Positions 23,050 through 45,131 of a stretch of 64,000 nucleotides of DNA are shown here, one piece after another; the first letter of the stretch is position 1; every line of letters begins with the position of its first letter. Under the pieces are notes generated by a model that saw only the letters and a program-made list of their open reading frames with translations, ran no database searches and was not told where the DNA came from. The stretch spans positions 1,426,001 to 1,490,000 of the forward strand of contig JAEBUN010000007.1 of assembly GCA_023014365.1 (NCBI GenBank), in the 5' to 3' direction. The position numbers were made by a program, and so were the translations under genes. The DNA comes from Lepiota brunneoincarnata (Eukaryota > Basidiomycota > Agaricomycetes > Agaricales > Agaricaceae).

Positions 23050-23305
23050 TGAAAAGGTAGAAACGTTCGTATGTTTTAATATGGATAGTGGGCTTGTTTT
23101 CACTAAGCTTAGCCGAAATTCGATAAGCTTAAGCTAATACAAGTGGAATGAGATAGATAAGGAACAGTTTCGTCTTTTAGGGTGTTCTGGGGGTGCGTTC
23201 TGACAGCGAAATTCAAGAGAGTAGTGTTTTAGAGGTTAACGAACAGCCGTTGAAGTTATCTTAGCCGTACGGTGCAACAATGAAAGGACAATCCCTGTCA
23301 ATTCA

Positions 23306-23411
23306 AAGCGCGGGGTCTCTAGTCTCTGGTCTCTGGTCTCTGTCTCTGTCTCTGTCTCTAGCACTCTGGAACTCTAAACTCTGAACTCTGGTCTCTGTCT
23401 CTGTCTCTGGG
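23306..23411. repeat. TCTCTG-type simple repeat inside the LTR
   Basis: Runs of GGTCTCTG/TCTCTG units with the spacer GAACTCTAAACTCTGAACTC. The tract is present in all three LTR copies, at about 44103-44208 and in reverse at about 60773-60882, with different unit arrangement in the older copy. Confidence 0.8.
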
Positions 23412-23450
23412 TTGGTCGACGACCGAAGAATTCACACTTAACGACGCACA

Positions 23451-23735
23451 CTAAATAGCCCTCTGAAACCGTTCTTGATCACGGCTCGCAGACTTGCGTG
23501 TGGAAGCAGGGGTGAGACCTCTTGCTTCTCCACGAACAAGTGCGACCGTATTTATATTGTTTAGATACATACGAGAGATAGTAAATATGAAATAGAAAAC
23601 AATAAGCTTAATTGTTACAGGCACTGTAGAACATTTTGGAAGGTTCGGCAGCATTTCTACCTTGCCCTGGGTTATGGGTTTTTCTCTGATTAACGAATGG
23701 CAATCCAGCCAGACGTGTTTCGTGCTCGTCTGCAT
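23451..23735 (-). CDS. 94-aa ORF within element 2 LTR (second)
   Basis: Starts MQTSTKHVWLDCHSLIREKP and includes a hydrophobic stretch IKLIVFYFIFTI. It is open in all three LTR copies (44532-44248 and 60447-60731 are the others). No family recognised. Confidence 0.35.
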   Translation of the reverse strand: MQTSTKHVWLDCHSLIREKPITQGKVEMLPNLPKCSTVPVTIKLIVFYFIFTISRMYLNNINTVALVRGEARGLTPASTRKSASRDQERFQRAI

Positions 23736-24024
23736 TATTCTGCGTCCACGCGAGCGCGTTAAGACTCCGGATCAATTATGATCGGAATGTATAGCGGATG
23801 GACAGTCCCTTGATCCGTTGTAATTAATCTCAGATAAGCAATAGGCCGAGGTGCCGGGACCCACAAAGCACTCGTTAATTAGGAGTCTTTGATATTTCTA
23901 GGGTTTTGGGCATCGGGTGTCGCCTCCCGAACGTTGAACGTTCCGTTCCGTGGTCCGGTCATCATTATTGGGCTCGCTTTCGACGTAATACTCCTGCGAC
24001 AGCCGCTAGGTACATTCTTTATAT

Positions 24025-24309
24025 TCAAACGCATCCGGGTTCATCAGAAAACTGCTCGTAAGGTCCCTTGATGCGACCGGAGTATACTCGATAGACTATG
24101 TAGAGTCCTGAATCCCTCTGGAAAGCGTTCCGATAGTTTGGTTCACTAAGCTTAGTGATAATGAACTGGTTTGAACACTTCCAAGGCTCGAATATCCTCA
24201 ATTCGGTCGAACTGGCTACTACGGGACATAGTACCAATCCTCTATAGAGTTCTTTAATGATATAGCCAATGATTCTATGTAGAGAATCGTTCCGGAGTAC
24301 GGAATTCAT
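24025..24309 (-). CDS. 94-aa ORF within element 2 LTR (first)
   Basis: An open frame in the sense direction of the LTR, starting MNSVLRNDSLHRIIGYIIKE. It is also open in the 5' LTR (45106-44822) and in the diverged solo LTR (59872-60156). No known domain. It may be chance, but staying open in the old copy is notable. Confidence 0.35.
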   Translation of the reverse strand: MNSVLRNDSLHRIIGYIIKELYRGLVLCPVVASSTELRIFEPWKCSNQFIITKLSEPNYRNAFQRDSGLYIVYRVYSGRIKGPYEQFSDEPGCV

Positions 24310-24334
24310 GTATAGGCGTGAAATCGGCGTATCA

Positions 24335-24343: not shown

Positions 24344-24660
24344 AACCAATTGCTGACTGTCCTCAGTCATTATCTCCTTCAAATTCGCAGTATCTGAGTC
24401 TCTCTGACGCGCTCTATGGTCTAGAACGTTCACCAGCTTCGAGGGTAGCGCACTTTCGCTAAGCTTATTCCAAATGATGTCATGTCACCGAGTTTAAATG
24501 TATAGATCAACTGTTTGTTGCTATAGCTTAAATTTTTATCTCTTTATTGGGTCTTTTAAATGTCCCAAGGTCTCGTTTCCTCTCTTTCGTTCTCCCTCTC
24601 ACTCTTTATCCGTTTTATCCTGCTCGCAGATCACTCCTTAACGCCCACTTCTATCAACAA

Positions 24661-26698
24661 TGGACAGAAACACGCGCAGCAGCAAACGTGCCCGATACGA
24701 AGTAGACACGGACTCCTCCTCTGGTGAGTAGAGTTCGTGTTACAATCATCTTTGTTTTTCCTCACACTGTCCTCAGACTACGCTGGGCCTAGCACTGCCC
24801 CTCCGGCCTCTCAGGACGCACCCTCTTCGTCGATTGCGCAACGTAAGTCTCTTTTCTCTCGCTCTCGTTGTTTTCCTCATGCTTTCTTTGTCCTTAGGTC
24901 TCACTATTCGCCTCCCGGCGCGTCGCAACCTCCTTCCTCAATGGGAACCACCAGCACCACGTGTTAGGAGAGCTAGAGGAGGGCGAGTGGGACGAGGAGC
25001 TTGCGGAAATCGCCAGGGAGGTGTGGATAGGACCCCTCCCCCACCGTACTCGCCGCCCCGCGAACCAACCCCTCGGCCGGCCACTCCCCTGTCCACTCCT
25101 GTGCCGCGACGCGTCATCTCGATCGCGTCACTGTGCAATCCAACTGACGAGAGTTCTGCCGGATTGTCCGCAGAACTTTTGTCAGGTATTCCTGTCGGCG
25201 GGCCCTCTGGTGGATTATCCACAGAGGCTCCGCCCAGTTCAATGTTGCTGCCTCCTCTCGCCGTCTCTCTGCGCACCCTGGACGGTGAAGGCTCGCTGGT
25301 GCTCCCTCCCCTGTGTATTGCGTCAGGTTCAGAGGTGCCGGGCCCTTCAACAAACCGCCCCTCCTCTCCTGTAGCCTCTTCGGCTACTTCTACGCGTAAG
25401 CTTAAGCCTTTTTCTGCTTATTTCTCCGCTCCTGCTAATAGTGTGCCTCATAGCTCGTATCCCTGCCGCTCTCAAAGGCAAGCAACGTGCACAGTCATCT
25501 GCGCCGCCCCCGTCGCCTCTGTTCCTGGCGAGTTCAAATTCGCCATCGCATTCTCCGGTCCCAGAGGTCTCCCAAGAAGACCTCTTCAAAATTTTTAACT
25601 GGTCCTCTACCCTGGTCGAGCGGAACGCATTGGCCTCTCCCAGGTGTCCTACGCCCTCGCTTCCTCACTTGGCTTCTGCTTCAGTCGAGTCTCTCCCAAG
25701 TCCCGCGGAGGCTTCGCCTTCTCCAGATTTGGAGCTCCTCTTGGAGCCTTCGCCTGTTCCCCAGGAGCCGGCGTTCGTTTTTCAAGACTCATTCTTAGCT
25801 TCTCCAACCCCCGTCCCCTCTCGTTTGCCGAGCCCGGTGGTCCCAGACACATCCCAGTCCTTGCCTCCCCAAGCCGGACCTTCAGGGTCGCGTCGCGCAC
25901 GCGTAACCCTACCGAAGAAAAGCTCTAACACGCGCCCAAAGAAATATACTCCCCGGGCGCGCATCCGACGTTCTGAAGCCGAAATAATCCGGGATCATGG
26001 ATACCGGCACCCAGTCCCGCTCTTTTGTGAGGACTTTTCTAGGCTGCTGGCAGCTAGCCAGCTTTCGGTACGTTCTCCAAGTTTTTCTCGTGTTTCCTTA
26101 TTAACTGTTTTGCCCCTTCCCTAGTACGTGCCGCCTCGGTCTCGGTGCACTACTTGCGCCGCTCGTAAATTGGAGTGCGAGCCTCTGGGCAAGGGTAAGA
26201 AGTGTCGCAGCTGCGACCTGTACAACTACCCCTGTACCTTCGCAGACCATCCGCGAGTCTCGGCTGGCGTTGCGAACGCCCTGGTCACGTCCTCACTGAC
26301 CAGTGAATACCGTAAGTTTCTCTGTTCACTGTTTTTCCCATTTATTTACTTTTTATTTCCCAGATCTTGCTGCCTTCGCACGGGTTGCGTCCTCCAGCTT
26401 GGTCAGTCTGGAGGCCAATCGTGTTGCCTACGAGGCATCGGCCTTCCACCACCGCCGTGTAATCTACCAGTTCGTCCAGGAGATGCAAGCTACCAGGACG
26501 GCCTTGGACGGTAACGACGTGGCGTTCGTGGAGATGGGTATGGCCGAGTCCCTCGAAGACGTCCAGGCGTTCTTCGAGTTTGCTGACAACTTTCCGGGGG
26601 TCCCGACATACGAAGAATTTGAGGAGCTCAAATTGCTCCTCTTCCTCGCTTTCCCGATGACTCAGGATCCGGAGTCTGTCTTGGAGGACTTGAACTAG
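24661..26698 (+). CDS. gene A of element 2: spliced protein with Zn2Cys6-type cluster
   Basis: This plus-strand gene is antisense to gag-pol. ATG 24661 follows a CT-rich tract. Introns read as 24724-24776, 24843-24897, 25396 to 25441 (or 25453), 26068-26124 and 26312-26363, all GT-AG; the third has the donor GTAAGCTTAAG. The N-terminal ~400 residues are Ser/Pro-rich and disordered, ending in a basic patch (TRPKKYTPRARIRR). The cluster CTTCAARKLEC ... CRSCDLYNYPC at 26146-26235 has spacing C-x2-C-x6-C-x8-C-x2-C-x6-C, which fits fungal Zn(II)2Cys6 domains. A mostly helical acidic region follows and ends VLEDLN-stop. Such domains usually contact DNA. Here it could regulate the element or the host, or act as a chaperone; that part is inference. 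Confidence 0.7.
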
Positions 26699-26809
26699 TG
26701 CCTGCTTCCCTTTCCTCTCTTGAATGTAATATATCCTCTTGTCCTGTATATAGTTACATTTCGCTTAACAATTCTTGTCTCTTGGTATCTTTCTGAGTTA
26801 AGCTTAAGG

Positions 26810-27196
26810 TGTTATCAGAAACCACATCAGAAGGACAGTTAATTTTAGCTCATATTCCCATGTCACTATGAAACTATCAGTAGTGTACATCAGAAGGACT
26901 ATTCTTAGTATATGCCTCATGTTTTCTTATCTCTGACTCATAGTTACCCCGGTCTGGACTATTATAGTAGGAGCATAGCCACACTTAGAAGTATATAAGG
27001 ATACAGTACAATACCTTGTATCCTTATCTTAGTGTTATACAGTTCTTGCCTCCTATACCTCTTTGCCCTTAAAACCGGCTGGACTATAGTGCTCCGTCGT
27101 CTCTAAGTCACGCCTAGTAGGACAAGACCAAGTCTGTATAGACATCTTGCCTCGAACGCCGTGCTACTCAAGAGCGAACCCCTAACCCGGGTAACA
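26810..27196 (+). repeat. 5' LTR of element 3 (387 bp)
   Basis: TGTTATCAGAAACC to CCGGGTAACA. A TATATAAGG box lies about 26995. Solo relatives are at 45519-45904 and 61321-61730. Confidence 0.92.
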
Positions 27197-27567
27197 AAAC
27201 ACTAAGATACTCTGCTGCTTATCTCTTGCTCGCCCTCTACTCTGCTCTGCTTTACCGACGTACTGAACGCGTCGAGGTACCCTGGTCGTTCAAAACGACG
27301 TGCGAAAGAAAACCGCCTCTCTGTGTAGCCATCGCTACGTCCCTCAACCTCTCCCCGCCAGAAGACCTGGCTTACCTACTCATTTTCGTTTTCACCTCTA
27401 CCGCCACCCTCATCGCCTATCGAATCATCACCCTAGAACTCGAACGCATCACGTGCCCCTGTCACTGCTGTGTCGTCAGATCGTGGAATCTATACTCAGG
27501 GATATCCATAATCGCCACCCAATTCTTCATACTTCTAGCGATAATCGATCGCTAGACAAATATCACC

Positions 27568-29367
27568 ATGCCTCCAAAGAAATTCTCGGCCCGAGAATCC
27601 CCATCACCCCCACCTCCCAAATCGAGAGCTAGAATCTCAGGATCAGGAACCAAAAACCCAGATCCCAGAAGAAACCCTATTCCCACGCAGACACCATCCC
27701 CATTCTATCCCCCATCTCCATTCGACTCACCCACTCCAAGCACATCAACACGTACAAGAACCAGTTTTGCTGACGAACTAGCAGAACGACAAAGACTACA
27801 ACACGAAAAAGAACTACAAGAACATTACGAACGAGAAGAAGAAAAACGCAAACAAGCCGAAGAATACCGTGCCAAAGTAGACCCATTAAACGACTACGAA
27901 CTCCAAAGACTCAAAAACGCCCTCAAACAACCCAGAGGACTTTCCGCATCAGAAGAAAACTTACTCGCACGCCACGAATACGCCGTAAATCAAGGAAAAC
28001 CCCAAGAAGACAACGACTCCGACGTCTATATAACAGACGACAATAAATCAGACCCCGATCCACAACCACCCGCATTACCCGCACCAACCATACCCTTAAC
28101 CCTACCGGCTCCACCTTTCCGACCAACACATCCTCCATCACCACCACCGCCGCCGCCACCCAGACAACTACAAATAATGGCCGCCGCAGCCACCCCAAAG
28201 GAGTTAGGACTCCTCAAACCCATCGCCTTCGATGGAACTAGAAGATTATTCGAAGATTGGATCTTCCAATGTGAAGTTTATGTGCTCGCCAATGCGACCA
28301 CTTACAACACCGACCTCGCTAGGACCTTATTCGTCCTTTCGACAATGCAATCAGGAGATGCCCGAGCCTGGGCTAGACAATACCTCCACGAGAGAAATGC
28401 CCAAACTCCACAAGGACAACCCATAGTCATGGAATCATGGGACAACTTCACCGCTCGACTGAGAGCCGACTTCACCCCAGCAGACGAGCATGCATATGCG
28501 CACACCAGGCTTCAAACCCTGCACCAAGCAGGCAAACCAATGACCGAGTTTAACGCTCAGTTCAAAGAACTCGTCCGACAATCCGGATTAAACGAAGATC
28601 GCACTCTGATCGATCTATACCGCAAGGCAATCGATCGCCGCATTGCCATGAAAATCGATGAATCAGAAAACCCTCCGACAACGATCACCGCTTGGTACAC
28701 CCGAGCAAACAAACTCGACGACAATTTCCGCTGAATTAACGCCCTGTACGGCACCCCCAGAAACACGTTTCCCCAAAGAAACCAATACCAACCCAATCGA
28801 GGACCAAGTCGCCCGAACAATAACGTGCCCTACGCACAATTCTACCAAAGGAGCAACGCTCCACGATTCACCCCACGCGACCCACATGCCATGGAAGTAG
28901 ACCATGTCACTATAGAAGAAGGGTTCGAAGACCCTTATCCCGAAATCCCACAACCGGAATACACCGAAGAAAACTCCGCACAGGAACCATTGGAGTTAGA
29001 TGCCGTTGTCACCGGACAACAAATGAAATCATACCAAAACCAGGAATGCTTCCGATGTGGAGCCAAAGATCATTGGGTCAGTAAATGCCCCCAACCACCG
29101 CCAGCTAGACGCTTCCCAGGAATGCGCACTAATCCCCCTCGCCCTGCAAGAAACCCCAACCGTCCCTTCCCTGGACAACAAAACACTCGTCCCGGATTCC
29201 CAAACCGGAACGCCCAACAATCACCGCAACGCAAGTACTCCCTTGCCGTCGCAGAAGTTGCATCTCAGATGCGCCAAATGGTCGATGACCTCGATCCAGA
29301 ACTCCAACAAGAACTCCACTCCGCGCTAGCCGAGGACCCGGAGATGCGTCCATTCCAGGATTTTTAA
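27568..29367 (+). pseudogene. gag of element 3, one in-frame TGA
   Basis: One frame from ATG 27568 to TAA 29367 is broken only by TGA at 28732-28734. It has a Pro-rich and charged N-terminus with a helical stretch (RLQHEKELQEHYEREEEK), a gag core (KPIAFDGTRRLFEDWIFQCE) and a zinc knuckle CFRCGAKDHWVSKC (29049-29090). CGA to TGA is a simple CpG change, but the LTRs are identical, so a programmed stop cannot be excluded. It ends GAT TTT TAA. Confidence 0.85.
29358..29364 (+). promoter_or_regulatory. probable -1 frameshift site, gag to pol, element 3
   Basis: Gag codons CAG GAT TTT TAA give G GAT TTT, close to the G GAU UUA type known from MMTV pro-pol. The pol frame is -1 and open from here. 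Confidence 0.6.
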
Positions 29368-32300
29368 AAAGGAACGCTGTCGACAGATGTGCCCCTGCAC
29401 GTTCCAGAACTCAGAAGGACATTTCGTACTCTCACTCCCAGAAGGACATTTTCTCGATAAACTCTGTACAATTACGACTATCCCCGAATAAACGATCCCT
29501 TTTTCTACCCATCGAGATTTGGAGTGAACGGACATCAAAACCCGTGGCCATCACCGCCCTGATAGACTCAGGAGCCCAAGGGAACTTTATCTCCCACAAA
29601 GTCGTTGAACGACATGGTTATCAAACCAAACGGCTGGACCAACCAATTCCACTCAGTAACGTTGATGGAACTGACAATCAACATGGCAAGATCCATGAAT
29701 ACATCAAAATCAGAACCATCATTGATGGAAGAGATTGCACGCTAGAAGCGTACGTCACAAACACTGGTGAGAAAGACCTCATCATCGGATTTCCCTGGTT
29801 GGAACAATACAATCCCGACATCAACTGGAAGACCAAGACATTCTCTTGGAAACCACAAATCGACCACCAGGATTTCTCGAAACTCCTCAGAACCCTACGA
29901 CGACCTGTCGAACTTAACTCCATCGCCATGGACATAATGGCTGGAAAAACCTCTCAACCCGAGGAAAACCCCGAGGAATACGTCAACCTGTCAAATGTTG
30001 ACCTCGACACCTTCTCTCTAGAAAGAGAAATGAACCCCATGCTTCTAACCCCATTAGAAGTAAACGCTAAAGCGACACACGCCACAACGCTCCACAATGA
30101 GCAGCATAATCCGACAAGATCGGCAAACCAAAAAGGAAAACAACCGGAATCAAACAAGGAAACACCCGAAATCCCTCGGAGATTCGCCCGATGGGCTAAA
30201 ATATTCAACAAGAAAGCCTCCGAACGATTCCCACCATCAAGAACGTTTGATCACAAAATCGAACTAAAACCGACATTCGAAGCGAAATCAATGAAACCTT
30301 ATCAAGTGGCACCTGCCGAAGAAAAAGCGTTGAAGGAATTCATAGACGAAAACCTCCGAAAAGGCTACATCCGCCCCTCAAAATCCCCTATGGCATCACC
30401 CTTCTTCTTCGTTGCCAAGAAAGGAGGAGACCTCCGACCCTGCCAAGACTATCGTTATCTAAACGACCACACTGTCAAAAATGCCTACCCAATTCCCATG
30501 ATTTCCTCTATCATGGACAAACTCAAAGGAGCTAAGTATTTCACCAAGCTCGACGTCCGCCTGGGATACAATAACGTCAGAATCAAAGATGGCGACCAAT
30601 GGAAAGCAGCGTTCAAGACTCCCATGGGTCTTTTCGAACCAACTGTCATGTTTTTCGGACTTTGCAACAGTCCCGCGACGTTCCAACATATGATGGACAC
30701 ATTATTCTCCGAAATAATGGAGAAAGGAGGAATCATCATCTACATGGATGATATTCTAATCTATGGTAAAACCAAGGAAGAAACCGACCGACTTACAGAG
30801 AAAGTACTGCAAATCCTGCAGGAAAACGACCTCTACCTTAAAACGGAGAAATGTGAGTTCAACAAACAACGACTCGAATACCTCGGCATGATCATCACGC
30901 CAGACGAGATCAAAATGGATCCAGGAAAGCTCAAAGGAATAGAAGACTGGCCAATACCAAAAACTGTCCGACATGTTCGGAAATTCATCGGATTTTGTAA
31001 CTTCTACCAGAAGTTCATCCGCAACTACTCCCACCACACCAAACCCCTGAACCAACTCCTTTCCAAATCAAACAAATTCGAATGGAAAGAAGAACAACAG
31101 AAAGCGTTCGAAACACTCAAGAACGAATTCTTAAAGGAACCGGTACTCCTCATGCCCGACTCCACAAAACCCTTCGAAATAGAAGCCGATGCTTCTAAAT
31201 TCGCATCAGGAGCTGTCCTATATCAATACGACATCAACGGAATACGGAAACCCGTATCATTCTATTCAAAGACGTTCGGACCAGCGGAACGCAATTACGA
31301 CATCTACGACAGGGAACTCCTCGCTATTATCCGAGCCCTCGAAGAGTGGCGCCACTACCTCCTTGGCAGCCCCCATACGGTCCGTATCAGAACGGATCAC
31401 CAAAACCTAACCTACTGGCGTAAACCCCAGAAAATCAACCGCCGACAAGCACGATGGGTACAGACCCTCGCGGATTACAACTTCAAACTAGAACACGTTC
31501 CAGGATCAAAGATCCCCGCACCAGACGCACTGTCAAGACGTCCAGACCACATCCCTGATGAGGATAACGATAACGAAGATGTCACCATACTTCCAAAGAA
31601 CCTCTTTGTCGCCACCGCCGACATAGAAGATCAAAACCTGATCACAATATTCCCAGAACATCTCTTTATCGCCACCGTCGATATGGAACTCCAAGAAAGA
31701 ATCACAGAATCACCAAAATACGACGCTAGAACCACCGAAGCGTTCAAACTCCTAAAAGAAGCCCACCCCAACGCCGCCGATAAAGACTTCGGAACAGTCC
31801 CAATCTCAAACGGTTCACTCCTCACGTTCCAGGAGCGTGTCATTATACCAGAAGACCTTCAACTCAGACGCGATGTCATCGCAAGGTACCATGACCACCC
31901 CACACGTGGCCATCCTGGAGAACAGGAAACCTACCGCCTCGCCAAGAAAGAAGTGTATTGGCCAGGAATGTCAACGTTCATAAAGAACTATGTCAAAGGC
32001 TGTCCAGAGTGTCAGCAACATAAAATTATACGCAGACCGGATCGCACACCAACTCAACCAATCCCTCCACCAACATCTAAACGCCCGTTTGCTCAGATCT
32101 CATGGGATCTTATCACCGGTCTACCGCCTAGCGCCGGTCATAATGCGATATTGTCCGTGGTGGACCACGGCCTTACGAAGGGGGTAATTTTCATCCCAAC
32201 CTCAGACCGATCAAACGCCGATGACATCGGACGACTATTAATAGAAAAGGTCTTTACCAGATTCGGACTACCCAACAAAATCATATCAGATCGAGACCCC

Positions 32301-33203
32301 AGATTCGCCGCCAACTCCCTCCGACAACTAGCCAAACGCCTTAATATCCAACAGGCATTTTCAACCGCATACCATCCCCAGACAGATGGTTCCACAGAAC
32401 GATACAATCAAGAAATCGAGACCTATCTCGCCATATATTGCACCAGGAATCCCCTTGACTGGTCAGAAACCCTCCCTATTGCCGAATTCGCACACAACTC
32501 CAAAATACATGCCTCGAGGCAAAAATCCCCATTTGAACTAATCATGGGATACAACCCCCCACCGATACCCACGGTAATGGAAACATCGAACTTTCCATCA
32601 GTAGACGAACGCATCAGACTCCTTGATGATGCCAGAAAAGAAGCACACGCGGCACATCAACTCTCCGCCGACATTATGAAACAAAGAACCAGAAGAACTG
32701 TCAAACCCCTTGAAACACGTCAAAAAGTATGGCTAGAAGCCAAGAACCTCAAACTCCCCTTCATCTCCAACAAAATATCCCCAAAACGACTAGGACCCTT
32801 CCTTATCACAGAAGTCCTATCACCACTCACCTACAAACTAAAACTTCCGATCAAATGGAAGATACATCCAATATTCCACAGAAATCTTCTAACCCCATAT
32901 ACCGAAACAGAAGCATACGGATCTCATCCGACCCCACCACCACCAGACATCATCAATGAAGAAGAAGAATACGAAATAGAAGCCATTCTAAACCACCGAC
33001 AACATCGTGGAAAACTCCAATACTACGTCAAATGGAAAGGATACTCCCACACAGAGAACGAATGGATCACCGACGAAACACTTCATGAAAACGCCAAAGA
33101 ATACTTGACCGAGTATAAAGAAGCTCATGGAATTCCCCAGAAAGAACAGGAACCCACCAGAACCAGCCAAAGACAACTTCGCTCCCACAACAAACATACT
33201 TAA
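29364..33203 (+). CDS. pol of element 3: protease, RT, RNase H, integrase, chromodomain; intact
   Basis: The frame is continuous from the slippery site. Domains in order are protease ALIDSGAQGNFIS (29559); RT with [19 protein letters not shown] and YMDDILIYG (30740); RNase H EADASKFASGAVL and TDHQNLTYW; integrase with HDHPTRGHPG and CPECQQHK, and a DDE core around SWDLITGLPPS, ISDRDPRF and GSTERYNQEIE; and a chromodomain EEYEIEAILNHR ... YYVKWKGYSHTENEW near 32970-33060. All catalytic motifs look complete. This is the best-preserved pol in the window, and with the identical LTRs it suggests very recent activity. Confidence 0.95.
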   Translation, partial: LKRNAVDRCAPARSRTQKDISYSHSQKDIFSINSVQLRLSPNKRSLFLPIEIWSERTSKPVAITALIDSGAQGNFISHKVVERHGYQTKRLDQPIPLSNVDGTDNQHGKIHEYIKIRTIIDGRDCTLEAYVTNTGEKDLIIGFPWLEQYNPDINWKTKTFSWKPQIDHQDFSKLLRTLRRPVELNSIAMDIMAGKTSQPEENPEEYVNLSNVDLDTFSLEREMNPMLLTPLEVNAKATHATTLHNEQHNPTRSANQKGKQPESNKETPEIPRRFARWAKIFNKKASERFPPSRTFDHKIELKPTFEAKSMKPYQVAPAEEKALKEFIDENLRKGYIRPSKSPMASPFFFVAKKGGDLRPCQDYRYLNDHTVKNAYPIPMISSIMDKLKGAKYFTKLDVRLGYNNVRIKDGDQWKAAFKTPMGLFEPTVMFFGLCNSPATFQHMMDTLFSEIMEKGGIIIYMDDILIYGKTKEETDRLTEKVLQILQENDLYLKTEKCEFNKQRLEYLGMIITPDEIKMDPGKLKGIEDWPIPKTVRHVRKFIGFCNFYQKFIRNYSHHTKPLNQLLSKSNKFEWKEEQQKAFETLKNEFLKEPVLLMPDSTKPFEIEADASKFASGAVLYQYDINGIRKPVSFYSKTFGPAERNYDIYDRELLAIIRALEEWRHYLLGSPHTVRIRTDHQNLTYWRKPQKINRRQARWVQTLADYNFKLEHVPGSKIPAPDALSRRPDHIPDEDNDNEDVTILPKNLFVATADIEDQNLITIFPEHLFIATVDMELQERITESPKYDARTTEAFKLLKEAHPNAADKDFGTVPISNGSLLTFQERVIIPEDLQLRRDVIARYHDHPTRGHPGEQETYRLAKKEVYWPGMSTFIKNYVKGCPECQQHKIIRRPDRTPTQPIPPPTSKRPFAQISWDLITGLPPSAGHNAILSVVDHGLTKGVIFIPTSDRSNADDIGRLLIEKVFTRFGLPNKIISDRDPRFAANSLRQLAKRLNIQQAFSTAYHPQTDGSTERYNQEIETYLAIYCTRNPLDWSETLPIAEFAHNSKIHASRQKSPFELIMGYNPPPIPTVMETSNFPSVDERIRLLDDARKEAHAAHQLSADIMKQRTRRTVKPLETRQKVWLEAKNLKLPFISNKISPKRLGPFLITEVLSPLTYKLKLPIKWKIHPIFHRNLLTPYTETEAYGSHPTPPPPDIINEEEEYEIEAILNHRQHRGKLQYYVKWKGYSHTENEWITDETLHENAKEYLTEYKEAHGIPQKEQEPTRTSQRQLRSHNKHT

Positions 33204-33206
33204 AAG

Positions 33207-35004: not shown

Positions 35005-35513
35005 CCCTTCTGGAATATCCCAAGCTAAGCTAAGGCTTCCAGCCGCTTATACGCTCATCAGATATTTCTCTGATACTTCTGCTATGTTTATTGACATCTC
35101 AGCGCGCCACGATTCGCCATGTGTAGTGAACCGGTCATCCGTTCCGGCTTCATTTACAAGCCCGAACCCGAACCAGCCTGTACACGGGGTTTGACGCGCC
35201 ATTTGCGCCACTTGGGGCCTGTCTCCCCCTAGCCAAATTGAAATCGGTGCCCTCACCGTTCCATCCGAATCCCTGTGCACACTGATAACCGCGAGACCCT
35301 GGTGACCTGTTACCCAATAAGGCAACTGTAGTTCAGCTAGTCTGTCGAAGGCTGGCTACTCAAGATTACAGGTTTCCTAGGCCTCTCAGGTCATAAGCTT
35401 AGGGTGGAGGGTGCTCTTTATCCACTCGTCATGATTCGTCATCACTGCCGACAGCCTTTTCTTATAAAAGCGAGGGAGCGACGTCTCATTCTAGCAGACA
35501 CTCTTCGTAAGAA
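35005..35513 (+). other. internal non-coding part of element 2 before gene B
   Basis: Element 2 sequence resumes after the TAAGG duplication (35000-35004). No supported ORF. It contains a TAAGCTTA at 35394 and probably the promoter and leader of gene B. Confidence 0.5.
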
Positions 35514-36862
35514 AATGGCTTCTTCGATCCCCAACCTTCAAGTCGAGCTCGACGATCTCATCAGCAACACCAAAGGTCGTCTTCAGCGCCTGCAAAACGG
35601 TCAAGTCGCTCGTCCCCTCGTCGAGAAGGCTCTCCTCGCATTCGACGCCCCTGGGGTATGTCTATTCTTTTCATGCTTCTCTCGCTGTTCCTCAATCATT
35701 TCTAGTCTGCTTATATTGAAGCATTATCGGAGGATAATGAAGCTATCAAGCTTCATGTCAACCAAGACTACGTCTTCCGTATTTGCAAGCTCTACGAAAT
35801 TTACCAAAACAACTACCATTCGTCTTATGAGATGCCCGCGATCTATAAGGCGCTCTCTGAATGCTGTAGCCGCATTAATCGCGTCCGCTCTGAAGAATCC
35901 CACAAAACCCGTACCGAAGAGGCTCAGAACCCGTCGTCCACGACTGGCTCTACTTCCTCCAACGTTGCCGAAGGCTCTGCTGTCCCCAAACGCGTAAGCT
36001 TAGCGTTCTTTTGGCTTCAAATCGTCTTCTCATGCATAAGCTTAGCCTCGCAAGGGTCGCAAGGCCCCTATCTCTGCTGCTGTTGTGGTAGACACCGATA
36101 CCGAGCCTGCGGAGAGTATGAATAGTGCCTCCAACTCCCGAGCAACTGGTGCTGACACGGTAATCTAGCTGCTTCTCAACCTATTACATTGGCTGAGATC
36201 ATCGCTCGCCTTCAGGACATGATGGTCGACAAGGAGGTCTCTCAAGCTATCGTTGAAGAGGTTCGTGTAGTTCCGCCTTATCGCAAGCGTCGTTTGTCTA
36301 CCTCCGATGTGGTGCACCAGCTCCACTCCCCCCAACCACTGATTCTGACTTCCTCTCTCTCTAGGAGACTGTCAAAAAGTCCTCATCGTCTAAAGGCTCT
36401 GTCCGTCTTCTTCCCTATAGTCAAGTTCCCAATATGAACACTAAACACTGCTGTTATGTCTGGGCTGAACAGGTTCTAGCCAAAGCCAGCGCCAATACTG
36501 CCAAATGCGCCCGTACCGAGTCTGCTTCTGATGAGCGCACCTTCGCAGGCTTATCCGGTGGGCAATTTCTCACTTCTGTTCGTTAAGCTTAGCGGTTCTG
36601 ACACTTTTCCCGGGCAGCTCGTTTGCTCCAGGAACTCCAAAACCTCCTGTCTCACTCTCGCGACGAGTACGAGTCTGAATCTCGCAGTGACGACGCTCGG
36701 TCTGTCAAATGCGACCTCAATTCGCTCAGCCGGGACTTCATCGAGGCTATTCCCTCGCTCGAAGCTAACTTAAAGAGGTTCCAATTCCTCATTCAAGAGC
36801 GCATCCGTCTCAAAAGTCTTTTGCGCAACCTCTCCGACTTGGACAAGCCCCTCCCCACTTAA
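35514..36862 (+). CDS. gene B of element 2: spliced coiled-coil protein of unknown function
   Basis: This plus-strand gene is antisense to gag-pol. ATG 35514 follows AAGAAA. Exons begin MASSIPNLQVELDDLISN. The intron from about 35656 has a TTTCTAG acceptor. The next, at 35994-36045, has TAAGCTTA at both its donor (GTAAGCTTAG) and its acceptor (ATAAGCTTAG). A further 53-bp intron begins GTATGA and contains a GCTGAC branch-like site. Later introns precede GAGACTGTC (about 36364) and CTCGTTTGC (about 36617). The protein is about 300 residues with a helical N-terminal half, a basic linker (PPYRKRRLST) and a helical C-terminal half (RLLQELQNLLSHSRDEYESE). Its stop TAA overlaps a TAAGCTTA. No known domain. 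A mutated copy lies at 62617-63483. Confidence 0.6.
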
Positions 36863-36943
36863 GCTTAACGCTTTTACAGTCCCTAGGATAGTTTTCCGTC
36901 GATAAGTAGATAGTTCTGTCCACAATATCAGGTTTTTTTTTTT

Positions 36944-39900
36944 CTATCCTTCCAACTCTTCCGGCTCCCATCTGTCACTAGGCTCATCCTCAGTAGTCTC
37001 CTCCAGGGTCTTCAGTCCCTCTGGCGACAGATCTATCAACTCTTGTAATTCCGGCGGCAACAGTATATGTTTCCTGGCTAAGTAGGGAATTACTCTGAAC
37101 GCTGCCACTTTATTCTGCCATACCGAACCGTCCAACTCTGCCAGGATATAAGATCCTCCCTTTGATCTAGATATGACCACCATGGGTCCTAGATACCTGG
37201 GTTTCATCTTCCTGTCTGCTGAGCTCTCTATAGCCGTATTTCTCACTAATACTAAATCTCCCGCGCCGAAGCGATAGTCTTTTATCTTATGCGCTGCTTG
37301 CCGTTCCATTTCCCAAGCCTTGCTAAGCTTAGTGTCTGAAACACGCTGACGCATCTCCTCAACATGCCAAACATGTTTTGCCAAAGCCTGAGCTCGATAT
37401 CCTATCAACTCGGCCGTGGTCAAGTACTTATTCGGTAGCTGCACCAGCCAAGTGGCCTCTTTGACATCCAAAGGTAGCGTCGGGTGCGCTCCGGTTACCA
37501 AAAAGTACGGGGAACACCCCATTCCTTTTCTAATGGTGATCCGATCTGCCCACATAACGTGCGGTAGGTGCCAATACCACTTTTTGACGTCTCCATCTGT
37601 AGCTTTGTACAACATTTGTCGCACATCCCAGTGGGGTCGCTCAATAATCCCGTTCGCTTTGGAATTGTAAGGAGATATCGTTACTCCCTTTATCCCATAT
37701 TTTTCTTCCAGCCATCGAACAGCTTTCTTAAATGGAGAACCGTTGTCCGTGACAATCTTCACTATACAGCCCCATCGGCAAATGATATCTTCGAATAACC
37801 ACTGCGCGATCGAACTGGCGTTCTCTTTTCTCAATGCCTTTGCCTCCATCCAAGATGACAGTCCACACCTTCCATGCACAATATAACTACACCCATTAGA
37901 ACTTGGCGTCATATGTAGTGTGTCCACATGTAGCACTTGGAATATCGACGGCGTGGGCGTTACTATTGGCGGCGTCTCGATGATCACCTTTTGCCGTTGC
38001 TGGCATAGATGGCACGATTGCACATACCAAGCTACGTCTCCTTCAACTTCCGGCCACCAGAACCTCTGCGTTATAAGCTTAGTGGTTGCGTATATTCCTC
38101 TGTGCCCTAGGAAGTCGTGGCTGGCTCGCAACATATACATACGTTGCTCCTTATCCACTACTAGCTGATGCTGACCGCTAGGACTCGTCCTATACAGCCT
38201 CCCCTCTTTATCCAAGAAGAAATGCTCTACCATATGCTTAAGCTTACGCAGATCTGGCTCATCCAAGCCTTCAGCTGCGCTACTGCCCCCTGTTTTCAGG
38301 TATTCCCTGACTTTGGGTATCCTTTCATCTTGTATTCGCGCTGTATCTGTCCTGCGCGACTCATCATATGTTTCCTCTATCTCGGCCGACTTTTCCTCTT
38401 CGAAATCTGGCACTAGCCTGACATCCGTCATTAAGCTTAGTACTTGTCGATGGTTTTCTGGACAGGCTGGGTCTTCTATAACCCTAAGCTTAGCCTGTTG
38501 TTCATCCAAGTACTCTTCCCGGGCTTGATCCAGCTCATACTCAAAATCATACACATCACGCGCCAGACCCTGGTTGAAGCCAGAGCGACTGTCGATCTCA
38601 TCGCAGAAGGCTTCCAAGGGTAAAGGATCTGCGGCCCCTGGATCTTCTTTGATCAGTTCGAACTCCTCTCCTTCATCCTCGGATCCATCGTCGAAGCGAC
38701 GGGCTGTCTCATCACCGGGATAGTAGCGTCGCCTGGACAGTCCGTCCGGTCCAAAGTTCTTCCCTTCTTTGTGTACTAGCGTGAAGTGGAACGACCTAAT
38801 GAAGTCCACCCAGTGGTTTACTGTGGCGTTCGGGAGCTTCCCTGGGTTGTTTAACATCCCGAAGAGAAACTTCGCATCCGTCTCCACCACTAAGTTTCTT
38901 GATCCCCACAGTAAATATTTCTCTTGTTCCAGCACCATTCTTAAGCCGCATAGCTCTCGCTTGGGCTGAGAGTATCTCTGCTGTCTTTCATCCAATAATA
39001 TTGACCCAAACTTCACATAATGTATAAGCTTAGCGTCTTCTCCATCTCTCTGATATATGTAGTATCCCACCGCCCTCCATGAGGTATCCACGGCTACTAC
39101 TATGGGTTGTTTACTCGGAAATTCGGGGTTCCTGGTCGGGAAACAGCGCTGAATCGCATCTTTCAGCTCCTGCTGCGCTTTCCGTTCGTTTTCTCCCCAC
39201 TCAAACTCTTGCCCCTTTTTAAGCTTTTCGTACAGAGGTGCCGCTATGGCTATGAACTTTGGGATATGATTCCTGCAGCGCGTAGCTGTTCCTAGAAAAC
39301 CCCTTAGCTCGGAGACATTCTCTCAATCCCCCCATCTTAATATCTTCCCAATGGTGTCTGTAGCAGGCAACCGTCCTTTATATGAGCATTCAAAACCCAC
39401 CACGGTGATTTCATCAGCGCAGATAGTCGTCTTGGGCCCAGAGAAGGTCCCTCCTACGTATTTCATCCTCTGTAGAATCCTATTGACGGTCTGCATGTGT
39501 TCCCATACAAATCTTCGGATCCCTGGGTTCTCTTTCAACGTCTCTTCCGTGCCATCTGGCAACTCATATCTAGTTTTCGGCCCTCTGATAGGTACATCAT
39601 CTATGTACGGCATCGTGTATTCTGGTATCTCACTGGCTAGGATCGCTGTTACATCCTCATGGAATATAGGCACTGAGTTGGTCCATCCCATGGGTAATGT
39701 CACTAAGCGTAGCGCTCCAAAAGGCGTCTGGAACGTTGTTAAGTCCCGAGACAACTCAGCTAACAGTCGCTCGTCATAGCCAACATATAGATCCAGAATG
39801 CCTCCGCAAGCTCTGCCTGCGAAGTGCATCGCCAAATCTTCCGTTGCTGGCGGCAGTCCTGAATGCGCTATCGTCACTCTGTTCAGCGGCTCCAAGCTGT

Positions 39901-40728
39901 GTACCAGTCTCAAACTTTTCCCATCTTTCTTCACCACACAGAACCATCGGGATCTATAGGATGAGTTCGACGGCTCGTATACACCAGCACTAATCTTTCT
40001 CTTTATAATGGCACAGACTTCATCATAGATCGCTGGTGGAATCGGAATGGGCTTCTCCACCCACGGAGTATGTTCTACCGTCGGTATCTCGATCGGCGGG
40101 AAGAAGTCTTCCCTAAAACATCCCCTCTCCTCATCTGTCCATGCGAATGCCCTTTCCTGAAGCATCATGACTTGGTGCATCAGCTTTCTTTCTTCTGGCC
40201 ACAAGAGATCCCCTGCATGGGCTTCATCCAGCTTAAGCTTGCGCTCCTCCGTATATCTGCCTGTCGGGACAAACTCTGGAGGATGCATACTAAGCTTAGG
40301 CATTTCTGCCAGCGGATCCCCTTTTATTTCTCGTTTTATCCTGAATTTCTCCGGTAAATCACCTAACACTGGCCTCACTTTTAAAGCGACTGGTTTATAT
40401 TTCTTCCCAGCCAGGCATTGTACAATATCTTCGTCATCCCCTTCAGTTTCGAAGACAGTCATTCCCTGACCCTCCGTATCCTGTGCGTTGGCGATGCGCC
40501 CTAGGCATGATAACGCCGTTGCTCTATCTTCCTGTGGGCAGTCCTCATCGCGTATGACTCGGTCAATGAACATTAGCTGTAGCTCGGCCTCTGAGAAGCT
40601 TCCTTTTGCTAAGCTTAGTGTTTGTGCGACGACAGGGCCCTTCTCATCATCATAGTCTATTATACAAGCCACCTCTCCTTGTCCCTCAGTCAACTCATCG
40701 AGGTTTCTTGAAAATTTTGACTGTTTTC
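36944..40728 (-). pseudogene. pol of element 2: RT, RNase H, integrase; one in-frame stop
   Basis: The frame is open upstream of 40693 and in -1 relative to protease. The RT part includes WFCVVKKDGKSLRLVHSLEP and MPYIDDVPIRGP (Y-x-D-D) near 39607. TGA at 39323-39325 interrupts the end of RT. The same frame then continues with RNase H ([28 protein letters not shown]) and integrase ([10 protein letters not shown] and CHLCQQRQ zinc finger; DTLHMTP, TDNGSPF and [10 protein letters not shown] for the DDE core). It ends at 36944. It is shorter than element 1 at the end and I see no chromodomain. With one stop and nearly identical LTRs, the element looks freshly disabled, or the TGA is read through. 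Confidence 0.88.
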
Positions 40729-41823
40729 CCTAAGCTTAGGAGGATTACACTCTCCTCGAGCATAAGTTGGTAACACAGCCCGTTCTCTGGTATTTGGGTC
40801 CGTAATAACCAAGGTTTGCTCGCCACTGGCGCTATTCCTGACTTCGCTAGCCGTCATTACATCAAAGGGTCGTCCCAAGAGTACTCGATACGCGGGGTTA
40901 CGAACGATGTGAACTTGCAAATAGATTGTGACTCCCCCGCAGGTAAAGCCTACGTTCTTTGCCAGTCCACAAGTCTTTTCAACCTGCCCATTCGCACTCT
41001 GCAAATTTATCGTAGTATCTGGATCCCAAGAAACTTGACATGCAATCGCCGCTTCCTGACTCATGGAGACGATCTGTGACCCGCTATCTAGCAAGGCCTC
41101 TTCCTGCCGAATCCCATTTATCAGAGTTGGCACTACTCTCAACGGCTCGCATTCTTTCGCAATAAACACTTGCCGTCCCCTGTCTCTTTGAGGAAGTGAC
41201 TCCAAGTACTGCATGATTGGATCCTGCGCTACCCAGGCTTGGGTTGCCGAGCCTTCTCGGAGCACTGTATCATACTTCCGAGTGCCGTCTGCTAGCTCCG
41301 TTATCATGACTTGTACTGGCCCACTATTAATCTCTATATCTTCTGTATCATCGTCCCAGGGCCCTACTCCTGCTATTAAGCTTTGACTCGTGGGTACCCG
41401 TTTTCTCATAATGCGCTCCCTATAAGCGTTCCTGTATATCGGTGACAATGCCAAGAGTTCTCCATGCGATACTGAGGCTTCTCGCTTCAATACCCTGCTG
41501 AGTACTTCCTCCACATCGACACTCCTCTCTATAGGGGCCTGGTGCTTATACGCAGGCTCCTTCTTAGATGGTTCCATCCTTCTGACAGGCAACGGTGGCA
41601 CCTCAATGACCGGGCGCAGTGGTTTCACATTTCTATATGGTAATTCCCCTGCTGCGGCACGCACTGGTTCCTCCGTTGTCTGCCCTATTTCCTCATTTTC
41701 TGATTCTTCTGATCGCTCGGAATCCGACGCGTCCTCAGGAGTCTGTCCTCTGGCGAAGGCGACCTTCTTCTTCAGAGCCGGCTCCTTCCTCGAACCCTTT
41801 AGAAACCCGACTCCGAGTTCCAA
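40690..41823 (-). CDS. protease-region ORF of element 2
   Basis: The 377-codon frame overlaps the gag end in -1. It has a charged N-terminal part, then the retropepsin-like site EALLDSGSQIVSMSQEAA (near 41070), the flap-like region and RVLLGRPFDVM. It ends NFQETSMS-stop just inside the RT frame. Protease in its own frame between gag and pol, with two frame changes, is the MMTV-type layout rather than the common gypsy one. Confidence 0.8.
   Translation of the reverse strand: MELGVGFLKGSRKEPALKKKVAFARGQTPEDASDSERSEESENEEIGQTTEEPVRAAAGELPYRNVKPLRPVIEVPPLPVRRMEPSKKEPAYKHQAPIERSVDVEEVLSRVLKREASVSHGELLALSPIYRNAYRERIMRKRVPTSQSLIAGVGPWDDDTEDIEINSGPVQVMITELADGTRKYDTVLREGSATQAWVAQDPIMQYLESLPQRDRGRQVFIAKECEPLRVVPTLINGIRQEEALLDSGSQIVSMSQEAAIACQVSWDPDTTINLQSANGQVEKTCGLAKNVGFTCGGVTIYLQVHIVRNPAYRVLLGRPFDVMTASEVRNSASGEQTLVITDPNTRERAVLPTYARGECNPPKLRENSQNFQETSMS
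40711..40717 (-). promoter_or_regulatory. possible -1 frameshift site, protease to RT, element 2
   Basis: In the protease frame the codons CAA AAT TTT give the heptamer A AAT TTT. The RT frame is -1 and open here, and the protease stop lies eight codons downstream. Confidence 0.45.
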
Positions 41824-43541
41824 GTCTTCGCGCCACTCCTGGTGTCCAAATACTGGCTTGCCGAGGGCGTACCATCCGTCAGACCACTAAGCTTAGCCTG
41901 TATCTGGGCCAATTGCTCGGCCAAAGACTGTATCTCGACGTTATCATCCTTTCTTGTCATAAGCTTAACCTTTGGGGTACTCCCAGCGTGGATGGCAGCT
42001 GTCTCCAACATTTCCATGCGCTGCTTCAGACGGCGGATTTCTTCTTCCGCTGGCGACCTTTGGTTTTCTGACCTCGGGAACGCTCTCTGTGCAAACACTG
42101 CTGACGTTGGTACTTGCGGTAACTCAGGCTCAACCTCCGGCAGTTCTGGTATCTGAACGAAGAGTTGTCCCTTTGTCGCATAGTACTTTGCCACTTTCTC
42201 TTTAATAGGCCCTTCTCCTCGAGGGATACTCGAGCCGTCTCCCATATATATTTTGTTCCCTTCGACTCTAATTCGGCCGGCTTGTTTATCCGCCTCCATG
42301 TCCGGGCAGAATAACCAACTATGCCCTAATAACCAGCAGTAGAAACACTTGCGATCGGAAAGCGACCCTGCCGGCCCACTTCCGGTATTCCTCTGGGCGT
42401 GATTATAACCGGCATGATTATGTCCGTCTTTCGCCGAGCTCTCTAAATATGTTTTTAAGGTATGCCCCTGGATATTCATGAGGTCCTTAAGCTCAGCGAG
42501 GCCACCTGCCATCTGCGAGACTTCATCCTGAAATTTCTGCTTTAAGCTTTGCAGTTCTCGCTTTACCACCGGGTCATAAGTCCCTGTTCCGGACGTCGCA
42601 GGTGGATGGCTCATCGATGCCGAGTTTACCGGCCTCAAATCCTGATGAAGGGATCGCATAAGTGTTTTGCCAATCGAAATTTCGACAGCTTTATCCACGA
42701 CAATCCTCCAATCATAGGGGTCCTCTTCGCGTAAATCCTTCGCAGTCAGTGCCGACCCATCACTTGCGGTTCTACGCGCCCCGGTGATTGCTAATCTCGC
42801 ATTGAGCACATCCTGGAACACCGAGTCCAGTGCGCTCGTAAATAACTCGACTAGCTCTCGGTTCGAGACTACCGCCGGCGACTTTAGACACTTCTCTGCT
42901 TCGAGAATGAATCGCCTTTTAAAGTCCAAGACTTTATGCTCCTCATTCATCGCAATGCCTCTACTCTCTGCGCAGAGTTCCCTCAAGCGTCGCACTGAGC
43001 CCTGCTTGGCTGCCACAGCCTCGGGATACTCTTTCTTTAATCTCTCTACGAAGCCTGTCCAGCTTCCTGCTAAGAACTCCGCAAAACTCATCCACTCTTC
43101 ACGGATATCCTGGTCCACATATGACACCGCCCAATTTATTCTTTCTGCCTCGTCCGTCGTCTTCGTTATCGTGAAGAGACGTTCCAGCGTCCAGAGATAA
43201 TTTCTCAATGTCTGTGGTTTTGATGCATCCCACCTGGGAGCATTATTGCTAAAGGGAATTGGCATACGCTCGTGTCCCATTTTTCTAGCTGTAGTCGTCG
43301 TCGACGGCGTAGTTTGGTTTGTCTGTACAGTCGGAGTTGACTGTGATATCTGTGGTACCGTGGGGGCACCAAAAGGGTTCGTATGAAACGAGTTTTGGTT
43401 TGGTAACGCTAAGCTTAGCGTAGGAACGGTCTGACCGTCCTGGTTTTCGGTGTGCAGAATATGCGCTATGTTGCGAGCTGAGGCTGGCAGCCTTATAGTA
43501 ATTCTGGGAGCAGTAGAGATCGGCGGTACGGCTTCTCTCAA
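41799..43541 (-). CDS. gag of element 2
   Basis: An intact 580-codon frame. It contains a gag core (RWDASKPQTLRNYLWTLERL, then VSYVDQDIREEW) and a zinc knuckle CFYCWLLGHSWLFC (C-x2-C-x4-H-x4-C) near 42340. A coiled-coil stretch (AEEEIRRLKQRMEMLE) lies near 42050. It ends SESGF-stop at the slippery heptamer. ATG 43541 is the first in-frame start about 300 bases inside the 5' LTR. Confidence 0.85.
   Translation of the reverse strand: MREAVPPISTAPRITIRLPASARNIAHILHTENQDGQTVPTLSLALPNQNSFHTNPFGAPTVPQISQSTPTVQTNQTTPSTTTTARKMGHERMPIPFSNNAPRWDASKPQTLRNYLWTLERLFTITKTTDEAERINWAVSYVDQDIREEWMSFAEFLAGSWTGFVERLKKEYPEAVAAKQGSVRRLRELCAESRGIAMNEEHKVLDFKRRFILEAEKCLKSPAVVSNRELVELFTSALDSVFQDVLNARLAITGARRTASDGSALTAKDLREEDPYDWRIVVDKAVEISIGKTLMRSLHQDLRPVNSASMSHPPATSGTGTYDPVVKRELQSLKQKFQDEVSQMAGGLAELKDLMNIQGHTLKTYLESSAKDGHNHAGYNHAQRNTGSGPAGSLSDRKCFYCWLLGHSWLFCPDMEADKQAGRIRVEGNKIYMGDGSSIPRGEGPIKEKVAKYYATKGQLFVQIPELPEVEPELPQVPTSAVFAQRAFPRSENQRSPAEEEIRRLKQRMEMLETAAIHAGSTPKVKLMTRKDDNVEIQSLAEQLAQIQAKLSGLTDGTPSASQYLDTRSGAKTWNSESGF
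41802..41808 (-). promoter_or_regulatory. probable -1 frameshift site, gag to protease, element 2
   Basis: Gag codons TCG GGT TTC TAA give G GGT TTC, a canonical X-XXY-YYZ heptamer directly before the stop. The protease frame is -1 and open through it. Confidence 0.7.
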
Positions 43542-43826
43542 AGCTGCAACTGCTGAACCACTCGCTGTGTTCGCAGCTAAAGCGCTAACGGGATCTTTTC
43601 GCTTTCGAGAGGTACTAGCGGCGATGAGGCCTTCAGAACCTTCTGGACGATTGGAGTTCCGAGTAGTTCTCTGTTTTGGTAGGTCGACCTTCCTGAGACT
43701 GCTCTCGAAGGACGTTTTGGGTGACTTTACGGTCTTTGCTTGAACCTTTTTCTGCTTTGCAGGTGAAAGGTGGGCCAGTGTCCAAGTCTTTTGGTGTTTT
43801 GTCTCGTGAAATTCAACTGAAAACCC

Positions 43827-43844
43827 CCCTCGCGGTGGGCTCCA
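43827..43844 (-). other. primer binding site of element 2
   Basis: On the minus strand TGGAGCCCACCGCGAGGG begins two bases after the LTR end. It is complementary to a tRNA 3' end in ...GGGCTCCA. I did not assign the tRNA. Confidence 0.75.
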
Positions 43845-43846
43845 GA

Positions 43847-45131
43847 TGAAAAGGTAGAAACGTTCGTATGTTTTAATATGGATAGTGGGCTTGTTTTCAC
43901 TAAGCTTAGCCGAAATTCGATAAGCTTAAGCTAATACAAGTGGAATGAGATAGATAAGGAACAGTTTCGTCTTTTAGGGTGTTCTGGGGGTGCGTTCTGA
44001 CAGCGAAATTCAAGAGAGTAGTGTTTTAGAGGTTAACGAACAGCCGTTGAAGTTATCTTAGCCGTACGGTGCAACAATGAAAGGACAATCCCTGTCAATT
44101 CAAAGCGCGGGGTCTCTAGTCTCTGGTCTCTGGTCTCTGTCTCTGTCTCTGTCTCTAGCACTCTGGAACTCTAAACTCTGAACTCTGGTCTCTGTCTCTG
44201 TCTCTGGGTTGGTCGACGACCGAAGAATTCACACTTAACGACGCACACTAAATAGCCCTCTGAAACCGTTCTTGATCACGGCTCGCAGACTTGTGTGTGG
44301 AAGCGGGGGTGAGACCTCTTGCTTCTCCACGAACAAGTGCGACCGTATTTATATTGTTTAGATACATACAAGAGATAGTAAATATGAAATAGAAAACAAT
44401 AAGCTTAATTGTTACAGGCACTGTAGAACATTTTGGAAGGTTCGGCAGCATTTCTACCTTGCCCTGGGTTATGGGTTTTTCTCTGATTAACGAATGGCAA
44501 TCCAGCCAGACGTGTTTCGTGCTCGTCTGCATTATTCTGCGTCCACGCGAGCGCGTTAAGACTCCGGATCAATTATGATCGGAATGTATAGCGGATGGAC
44601 AGTCCCTTGATCCGTTGTAATTAATCTCAGATAAGCAATAGGCCGAGGTGCCGGGACCCACAAAGCACTCGTTAATTAGGAGTCTTTGATATTTCTAGGG
44701 TTTTGGGCATCGGGTGTCGCCTCCCGAACGTTGAACGTTCCGTTCCGTGGTCCGGTCATCATTATTGGGCTCGCTTTCGACGTAATACTCCTGCGACAGC
44801 CGCTAGGTACATTCTTTATATTCAAACGCATCCGGGTTCATCAGAAAACTGCTCGTAAGGTCCCTTGATGCGACCGGAGTATACTCGATAGACTATGTAG
44901 AGTCCTGAATCCCTCTGGAAAGCGTTCCGATAGTTTGGTTCACTAAGCTTAGTGATAATGAACTGGTTTGAACACTTCCAAGGCTCGAATATCCTCAATT
45001 CGGTCGAACTGGCTACTACGGGACATAGTACCAATCCTCTATAGAGTTCTTTAATGATATAGCCAATGATTCTATGTAGAGAATCGTTCCGGAGTACGGA
45101 ATTCATGTATAGGCGTGAAATCGGCGTATCA
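43847..45131 (-). repeat. 5' LTR of element 2 (1,285 bp)
   Basis: The same length and layout as 23050-24334. It is upstream of gag on the minus strand and should contain its promoter. Confidence 0.93.

Follow-up and report, generated by a model that had tools for sequence, protein, structure and literature searches.

The Drosophila element gypsy carries repeated sites for the host zinc-finger protein Su(Hw) inside a long terminal repeat (LTR) element, and VANDAL elements are plant DNA transposons. Self-encoded, sequence-specific anti-silencing has been described for the VANDALs of Arabidopsis; in the passages of that source covered here, VANDAL21 encodes the binder, VANC21, and the density of the word YAGTATTAY gives the specificity (PMC5735166). 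The plant LTR retrotransposons Retand, Grande, and RIRE2 have extra antisense open reading frames (ORFs) in the interval between pol and the 3′ LTR (PMC11963269, PMC7264820), and a regulatory, DNA-binding role is suggested for antisense ORFs of Retand, one of which, TRP28, has predicted DNA-binding residues (PMC11963269). Here we analyze a stretch of 64,000 nucleotides from the basidiomycete Lepiota brunneoincarnata (assembly GCA_023014365.1, contig JAEBUN010000007.1, positions 1,426,001 to 1,490,000 of the forward strand), hereafter the window, in whose coordinates positions are given. A Ty3/gypsy-type element at 23050-45131 carries the exact 8-bp palindrome TAAGCTTA along its whole length, together with two genes, A and B, antisense to gag-pol.

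Like VANDAL21, the fungal element has a family-specific short word at high density, and introns of accessory genes, predicted ones in the fungal case, hold sites in both; the VANDAL21 binder is transposon-encoded, whereas in the present case an element-encoded binder is a candidate. According to the passages covered, the VANDAL21 motifs are non-palindromic, lie mainly in non-coding DNA, often form tandem repeats in one orientation, and have grown by tandem repetition (PMC5735166). In contrast, the fungal word is an exact palindrome, dispersed between unrelated flanks, with 12 of 24 sites in gag-pol frames outside the LTR, and the gains traced are point changes. The element also stands apart from the Mutator-type DNA transposons that encode VANC, VANB, and VANA, being an LTR retrotransposon whose gene A and gene B exons give no Pfam family above cut-off. 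Tandem repeat arrays occur in the region of the antisense ORFs in roughly half of the Retand elements studied, and an element-wide dispersed word is not described for Retand, Grande, or RIRE2 in the passages covered (PMC11963269, PMC7264820). Genes A and B differ from the ORFs of this type, as those passages present them, in having several predicted introns and, in one case, a zinc-cluster-like exon. In the gypsy insulator the sites form a single cluster read by a host protein, whereas the fungal sites span the whole element.

Enrichment and placement of the word

A first-pass annotation of the sequence had listed 28 exact copies of TAAGCTTA in the element, with well under one expected by chance. 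Every listed position was verified, and nine more copies, at 60027-63947 in other copies of the family, had gone unlisted. The whole window holds 37 copies versus a mean of 0.70 and a maximum of 3 in 100 dinucleotide shuffles; with one LTR counted and a nested element excluded, the 12.6 kb of the element hold 24, about one per 500 bp, versus a mean of 0.195 and a maximum of 2 in 200 such shuffles. Codon preference does not reproduce the count, which the earlier annotation had named as a possible refutation: 13 copies fall in the four open frames of gag-pol, versus a mean of 0.11 and a maximum of 3 in 300 synonymous-codon shuffles. Site 43901 among them belongs to the 5′ LTR, and site 43410 is upstream of the ATG at 43280; ten of the 13 are read as xxT-AAG-CTT-A (K-L) and three as xTA-AGC-TTA (L-S-L). 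Gag-pol frames outside the LTR thus take 12 of the 24 sites, and the LTR takes four. By our own splice models, the only site lying in an exon of the accessory genes is 36860, at the stop codon of gene A.

The enriched unit is the exact 8-mer, because words with one mismatch (9 versus 4.6 expected) stay inside the shuffle range of 0-10. The word is followed by G at 16 of 24 sites and preceded by C at 10 of 24; beyond these adjacent bases, no symmetric signal and no extended palindrome were found around the sites. A larger repeated unit or mini-insert was considered and rejected, as the sequences flanking different sites are unrelated. The longer form CTAAGCTTAG occurs 11 times in 23050-45131. 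Over the 55.6-Mb genome it occurs 2011 times versus 39 for its reversed control, and TAAGCTTA occurs 5370 times versus 842 for ATTCGAAT.

Conservation in diverged copies

Site retention was scored in a diverged set of five copies, 79-92% identical to the element, namely the pieces of a second copy in the window and the loci L066, L068, L069, and L070. The loci L065 and L067 have neither a gag-pol match nor sites and were left out of the count, and the gag sites are covered by none of the old copies. The control consisted of 8-mers lacking CG, TG, and CA, edges included, which are immune to CpG decay; an origin of the apparent conservation in CpG decay or decay resembling repeat-induced point mutation (RIP) was controlled for in this way. 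Pooled over the five copies, 47 of 57 covered sites are intact versus 1174 of 2464 control words (48%), where 27.7 would be expected (P = 7e-8 assuming independence). On the pooled count, the diverged copies keep the sites, the absence of which from other family copies the first-pass annotation had offered as a refutation. Taken singly, the second window copy keeps 9 of 9 sites (P = 0.019), L069 15 of 16 (P = 9e-5), and L070 13 of 15 (P = 0.0096). The site at 25397 was scored as lost through alignment gaps in L066 and in a further locus, L064, yet is present in both; eight of the other nine changed sites in the five copies are one base off.

The conservation extends to third codon positions and to bases outside codons. 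Third codon positions are unchanged within sites in 62 of 62 cases versus 1807 of 2059 (88%) elsewhere, and motif bases outside codons are kept in 287 of 296 cases versus 9473 of 10942. A second sub-family retains 21 of 25 sites over its 12 gene B loci examined, versus 897 of 2714 words. No site is lost at the close gene B loci (18 loci, 69 of 69 sites) or at 30 LTR loci (155 of 155; the best of 40 scored from 699 candidates), with the background also near 1 in both sets, and the window's own element makes up three of these 48 loci. The pattern points to selection acting on the DNA word itself.

Gain and loss of sites and the encoded protein

At the position of site 26799, five of the six second-sub-family loci aligned have TAAGCTAA, as does L066, and the site was probably gained in the window's sub-family through one change, TAAGCTAA to TAAGCTTA. 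Element position 40234 has TAAGCTTA in L069 and L070 and TAAGCTTG in the window, and L066 has an extra TAAGCTTA at a predicted gene B intron donor where the window has none. Point mutation appears to make and remove at least some of the sites.

At the six sites in the RNase H-integrase frame, we compared the encoded residues with nine close relatives. They are shared with none of the nine at 39025, 38485, and 38432, with one at 38239, with six at 38074, and with four at 37324; five of the seven K-L pairs in this frame are coded by TAAGCTTA. Constraint on the K-L dipeptide was considered as an explanation, but 38074 alone, one of the six integrase sites, has residues found in most close relatives. 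These comparisons suggest that the DNA word set the residues at the integrase sites, although a pooled dipeptide test is not significant.

Element organization

The element comprises 13.9 kb of its own DNA and a nested element of 8.2 kb. Its LTRs are 1285 bp each and run TG to CA, and the 4 bp CCGA are repeated on either side of the pair, at 23046-23049 and at 45132-45135; in the BLAST alignment the pair spans 23044-24334 and 43841-45131 at 99.7% identity. The LTRs and the pol order of protease, reverse transcriptase, RNase H, and integrase identify a Ty3/gypsy (Metaviridae-type) element by Pfam, with RVT_1 below its cut-off. Gag-pol lies on the minus strand, and genes A and B on the plus strand between pol and the 3′ LTR. 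The 3′ LTR (23050-24334, minus strand) has four sites, at 23104, 23124, 23603, and 24147, as does the 5′ LTR (43847-45131, minus strand), at 43901, 43921, 44400, and 44944. From the 5′ LTR, a gag-like open frame (41799-43925, minus strand), assigned by position without a Pfam match, has sites at 41888, 41960, and 43410; it continues into the LTR, and its first in-frame ATG is the one at 43280. The aspartic protease region (40690-41886, minus strand; gag-asp_proteas, 2.7e-8) has site 40731, and the reverse transcriptase (39323-40729, minus strand; RVT_1, 6.5e-5, below the curated cut-off) has sites 40291 and 40610. The RNase H and integrase frame (36944-39322, minus strand; RT_RNaseH, 1.2e-11; Integrase_H2C2, 7e-17) has the six sites compared above. 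This frame has 522 relatives at E ≤ 1e-3 among 7992 proteins scored, and a protein of Agaricus bisporus var. burnettii is among the best 120 of the 522.

On the plus strand, gene A (35515-36862) is preceded by a site at 35394-35401. Its predicted intron at 35994-36045 has the word at both ends (35995 and 36037), another site lies inside a predicted intron (36584-36591), and the site at 36860-36867 overlaps the TAA stop codon. Gene B (24660-26698) has a site in the interval between it and the 3′ LTR (24460-24467, an exact match), one at a predicted intron 5′ donor (25397-25404; C/GTAAGCTTA, the slash marking the exon boundary), and one downstream (26799-26806). The nested, unrelated LTR element (26810-34999, plus strand, LTRs of ~390 bp) lies outside the array and has no TAAGCTTA inside. 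Its target duplication, TAAGG, overlaps site 26799 (26799-26809), which may be chance. Beyond the element, an inverted LTR of the same family (59846-61152, plus strand, 92.8% identical) keeps four of four sites (60027, 60572, 61066, and 61086). Part of a second internal region, with the ends of gene A and pol (62614-64000, minus strand, 90.5% identical), keeps five of five (62617, 62658, 63205, 63481, and 63940).

Genes A and B

The gene B model of 579 residues, from a splice model built on the sequence, joins 24660-24701, 24777-24828, 24898-25395, 25442-26067, 26125-26311, and 26364-26698; 80 splice combinations are open and the first exons are uncertain. Its zinc exon (26125-26310) encodes C-x2-C-x6-C-x8-C-x2-C-x6-C. 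The Zn2Cys6 pattern is six cysteines spaced x2, x6, x5-12, x2, and x6-8, and the gene B spacing falls within it. The match to the Pfam family Zn_clus (PF00172), at E = 0.0017 and 18.9 bits, is below the curated cut-off of 21. The six cysteines are invariant in all 11 aligned loci. Of four decayed copies outside that count, two (L068 and L070) retain all six cysteines and two (L066 and L069) do not. Gene B resembles the Gal4-type Zn2Cys6 factors (PF00172) in its cysteine spacing and in the basic residues between the second and third cysteines, and differs from them in the sub-threshold score, in a candidate word without CGG, and in lying antisense in a retrotransposon. An AlphaFold single-sequence model of the zinc exon (predicted local distance difference test score of 57) was too poor for structure searching, and the matches from a PDB profile search were all short, largely to haemoglobin, and were attributed to chance.

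The gene A model of 358 residues has six exons (35515-35655, 35706-35993, 36046-36115, 36169-36308, 36365-36557, and 36618-36862) and is one of eight open models. Pfam gave no confident domain for gene A and no family above its cut-off for the exons of either gene, and no homologue was found among public proteins at E ≤ 1e-3 for gene B (2081 candidates) or gene A (4171), so that neither protein family hinted at a function. The genome gave 133 match rows for gene B and 150 for gene A, some of them pieces of one copy. By a simple Nei-Gojobori count, seven copies of gene B have a ratio of nonsynonymous to synonymous change (dN/dS) of 0.09-0.18 over its last three exons, an eighth, L065, giving no estimate. 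For gene A, counted over four exons, the ratio is 0.10-0.38 in seven copies and 0.71 in the second copy in the window; reverse transcriptase and integrase together give 0.14-0.20 in four copies. Genes A and B are under purifying selection; their introns are predicted.

Several further observations concern these genes. The zinc exons of L068, L069, and L070 show changes of R to W, C, H, and Q that are CpG- or RIP-like, while the CpG-free word stays. In the same three copies, synonymous divergence of gene B (25444-26695) is 1.02, 1.18, and 0.48, above that of reverse transcriptase and integrase (0.28, 0.35, and 0.30), as if the segment had been exchanged between sub-families. L065 (3063-3637) and L067, two almost identical stretches close to the ends of contigs, each contain an open zinc exon; their gene B homologue, 60-62% identical in that exon, may represent a gene of the host, a domesticated copy, or another element. 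Seven distant relatives of gene A (C36:17109, C25:2296809, C50:2993, C74:23002, C17:783565, C5:899822, and C9:1066583), 29-33% identical over ~70 residues at E values of 4e-8 to 4e-6, suggest that there is a second family of elements that has a gene A of its own.

What may read the word

We propose that TAAGCTTA is a DNA word read by a dimeric protein, likely the element's own, that serves anti-silencing or transcription control, and we give this proposal an even chance of being right. The word would be the recognition word of this Ty3/gypsy family, maintained by selection across the whole element. Its exact palindromy would call for a dimeric binder, perhaps cooperative over the array, by which only family members would be recognized. 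The likeliest binder would be a product of the element, either gene B with its Zn2Cys6-like cluster or gene A, and the likeliest role would be to keep the chromatin of the element active or to regulate its transcription. With four sites in each LTR and others around genes A and B, autoregulation would be possible as well. A dimeric DNA-binding protein appears to fit best because of the sharp 8-bp edges and the conservation at third codon and non-coding positions. Anti-silencing or transcription control seems likeliest by analogy with VANC and with the regulatory role suggested for the antisense ORF of Retand. The suggestion of the first-pass annotation, an array bound by a dimeric and perhaps element-encoded protein, stands in part, as what would best fit the palindrome, its conservation, the point changes, and the Zn2Cys6-like gene. 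Binding, dimerization, the identity of the binder, and the anti-silencing outcome are all steps that we infer from sequence. A fuller version, in which a whole-length self-tag including coding DNA is read by an antisense-encoded zinc-cluster protein, the anti-silencing arose independently of VANDAL and VANC, and the protein sequence is partly bent to the word, is tentative, and we lean against it.

Several observations weigh against the proposal of an element-encoded reader of a selected word. The copies are related by descent, and the pooled P of 7e-8 is optimistic for that reason; L066 keeps five of eight sites (P = 0.063) and the truncated copy L068 five of nine (P = 0.33). A pooled dipeptide test was not significant (11 of 45 versus 20 expected; fraction 0.16). 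The Zn_clus scores of 18.9, 15.8, and 15.5 bits are all under the curated 21, a 17-residue match to zf-ChsH2 scores higher at 22.6 bits (its own cut-off being 23.2), and a sequence search for solved structures found no zinc cluster matching gene B. Zn2Cys6 proteins usually read CGG half-sites, and TAAGCTTA has none, which counts against gene B as the binder. L065 and L067, finally, hold the gene B homologue yet lack both a gag-pol match and, over 8 kb, any site.

The absence of CGG would suit a host dimeric DNA-binding protein, such as an activator, an insulator, or a nuclear-organization factor, that reads the array and is exploited by the element, much as gypsy uses Su(Hw); conservation and palindromy suit any dimeric binder. 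We consider this unlikely, yet a serious rival. For a host activator, a cluster in the regulatory region would suffice, whereas half of the sites lie in gag-pol frames outside the LTR, and purifying selection acts on the two genes that the element itself carries. Many of the first-listed CTAAGCTTAG places in the genome, all on contig C1, are paired at LTR-like spacing, which suggests that the excess of the word belongs to the Ty3/gypsy family. The retention of the sites makes a host silencing mark, another earlier suggestion, less likely.

A role in RNA or cDNA, either in genome dimerization or packaging through kissing palindromes or as template-switch points, would draw on the capacity of a palindrome to pair with itself and on the coverage of the genomic RNA by sites. 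The sites lack a flanking stem or extended hairpin, and their predicted accessibility is lower than that of control 8-mers (0.466 versus 0.557 for 21 sites; 0.436 versus 0.605 for seven). Known dimerization signals require one or few copies, and we regard this explanation, which includes the packaging mark of the first-pass annotation, as improbable. Splicing signals of the antisense genes, with GTAAG donors and CTTAG acceptors, would account for the predicted gene A intron at 35994-36045 (donor C/GTAAGCTTAG, acceptor TAAGCTTAG/) and for the donor at 25397. This reading is mostly refuted by position, as the junctions of genes A and B take three of the 24 sites while the LTR and the gag-pol frames take the shares given above, and we find it scarcely credible as a general account. 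For a functionless mutational or copying process that writes the word, such as gene conversion, homing cleavage, or local duplication, we found nothing direct, apart from the overlap of the TAAGG duplication with one site. The unrelated flanks imply that no larger unit was copied, the traced gains resemble single-base steps, and third codon positions are better kept inside sites than elsewhere, so that such a process is very improbable.

Significance

The array is real, strongly enriched, and conserved, and its function is one that we infer. In a literature search on TAAGCTTA, none of the 15 titles listed, out of 23 papers, is about a transposon, and among the papers listed by searches on additional antisense genes, or on self-binding words, in elements of fungi, no title or opening of an abstract describes such a system. 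Few systems are known in detail by which transposons resist silencing. If the proposed self-reading of TAAGCTTA is true, the fungal element would be a second independent case, after the Arabidopsis VANDALs, in which a short word spread across a genome parasite can act as an identity tag. The word itself, two candidates for its binder, and numerous copies of differing age are all present in one genome. If a host protein reads the word instead, the array would be a ready probe for a fungal chromatin factor.

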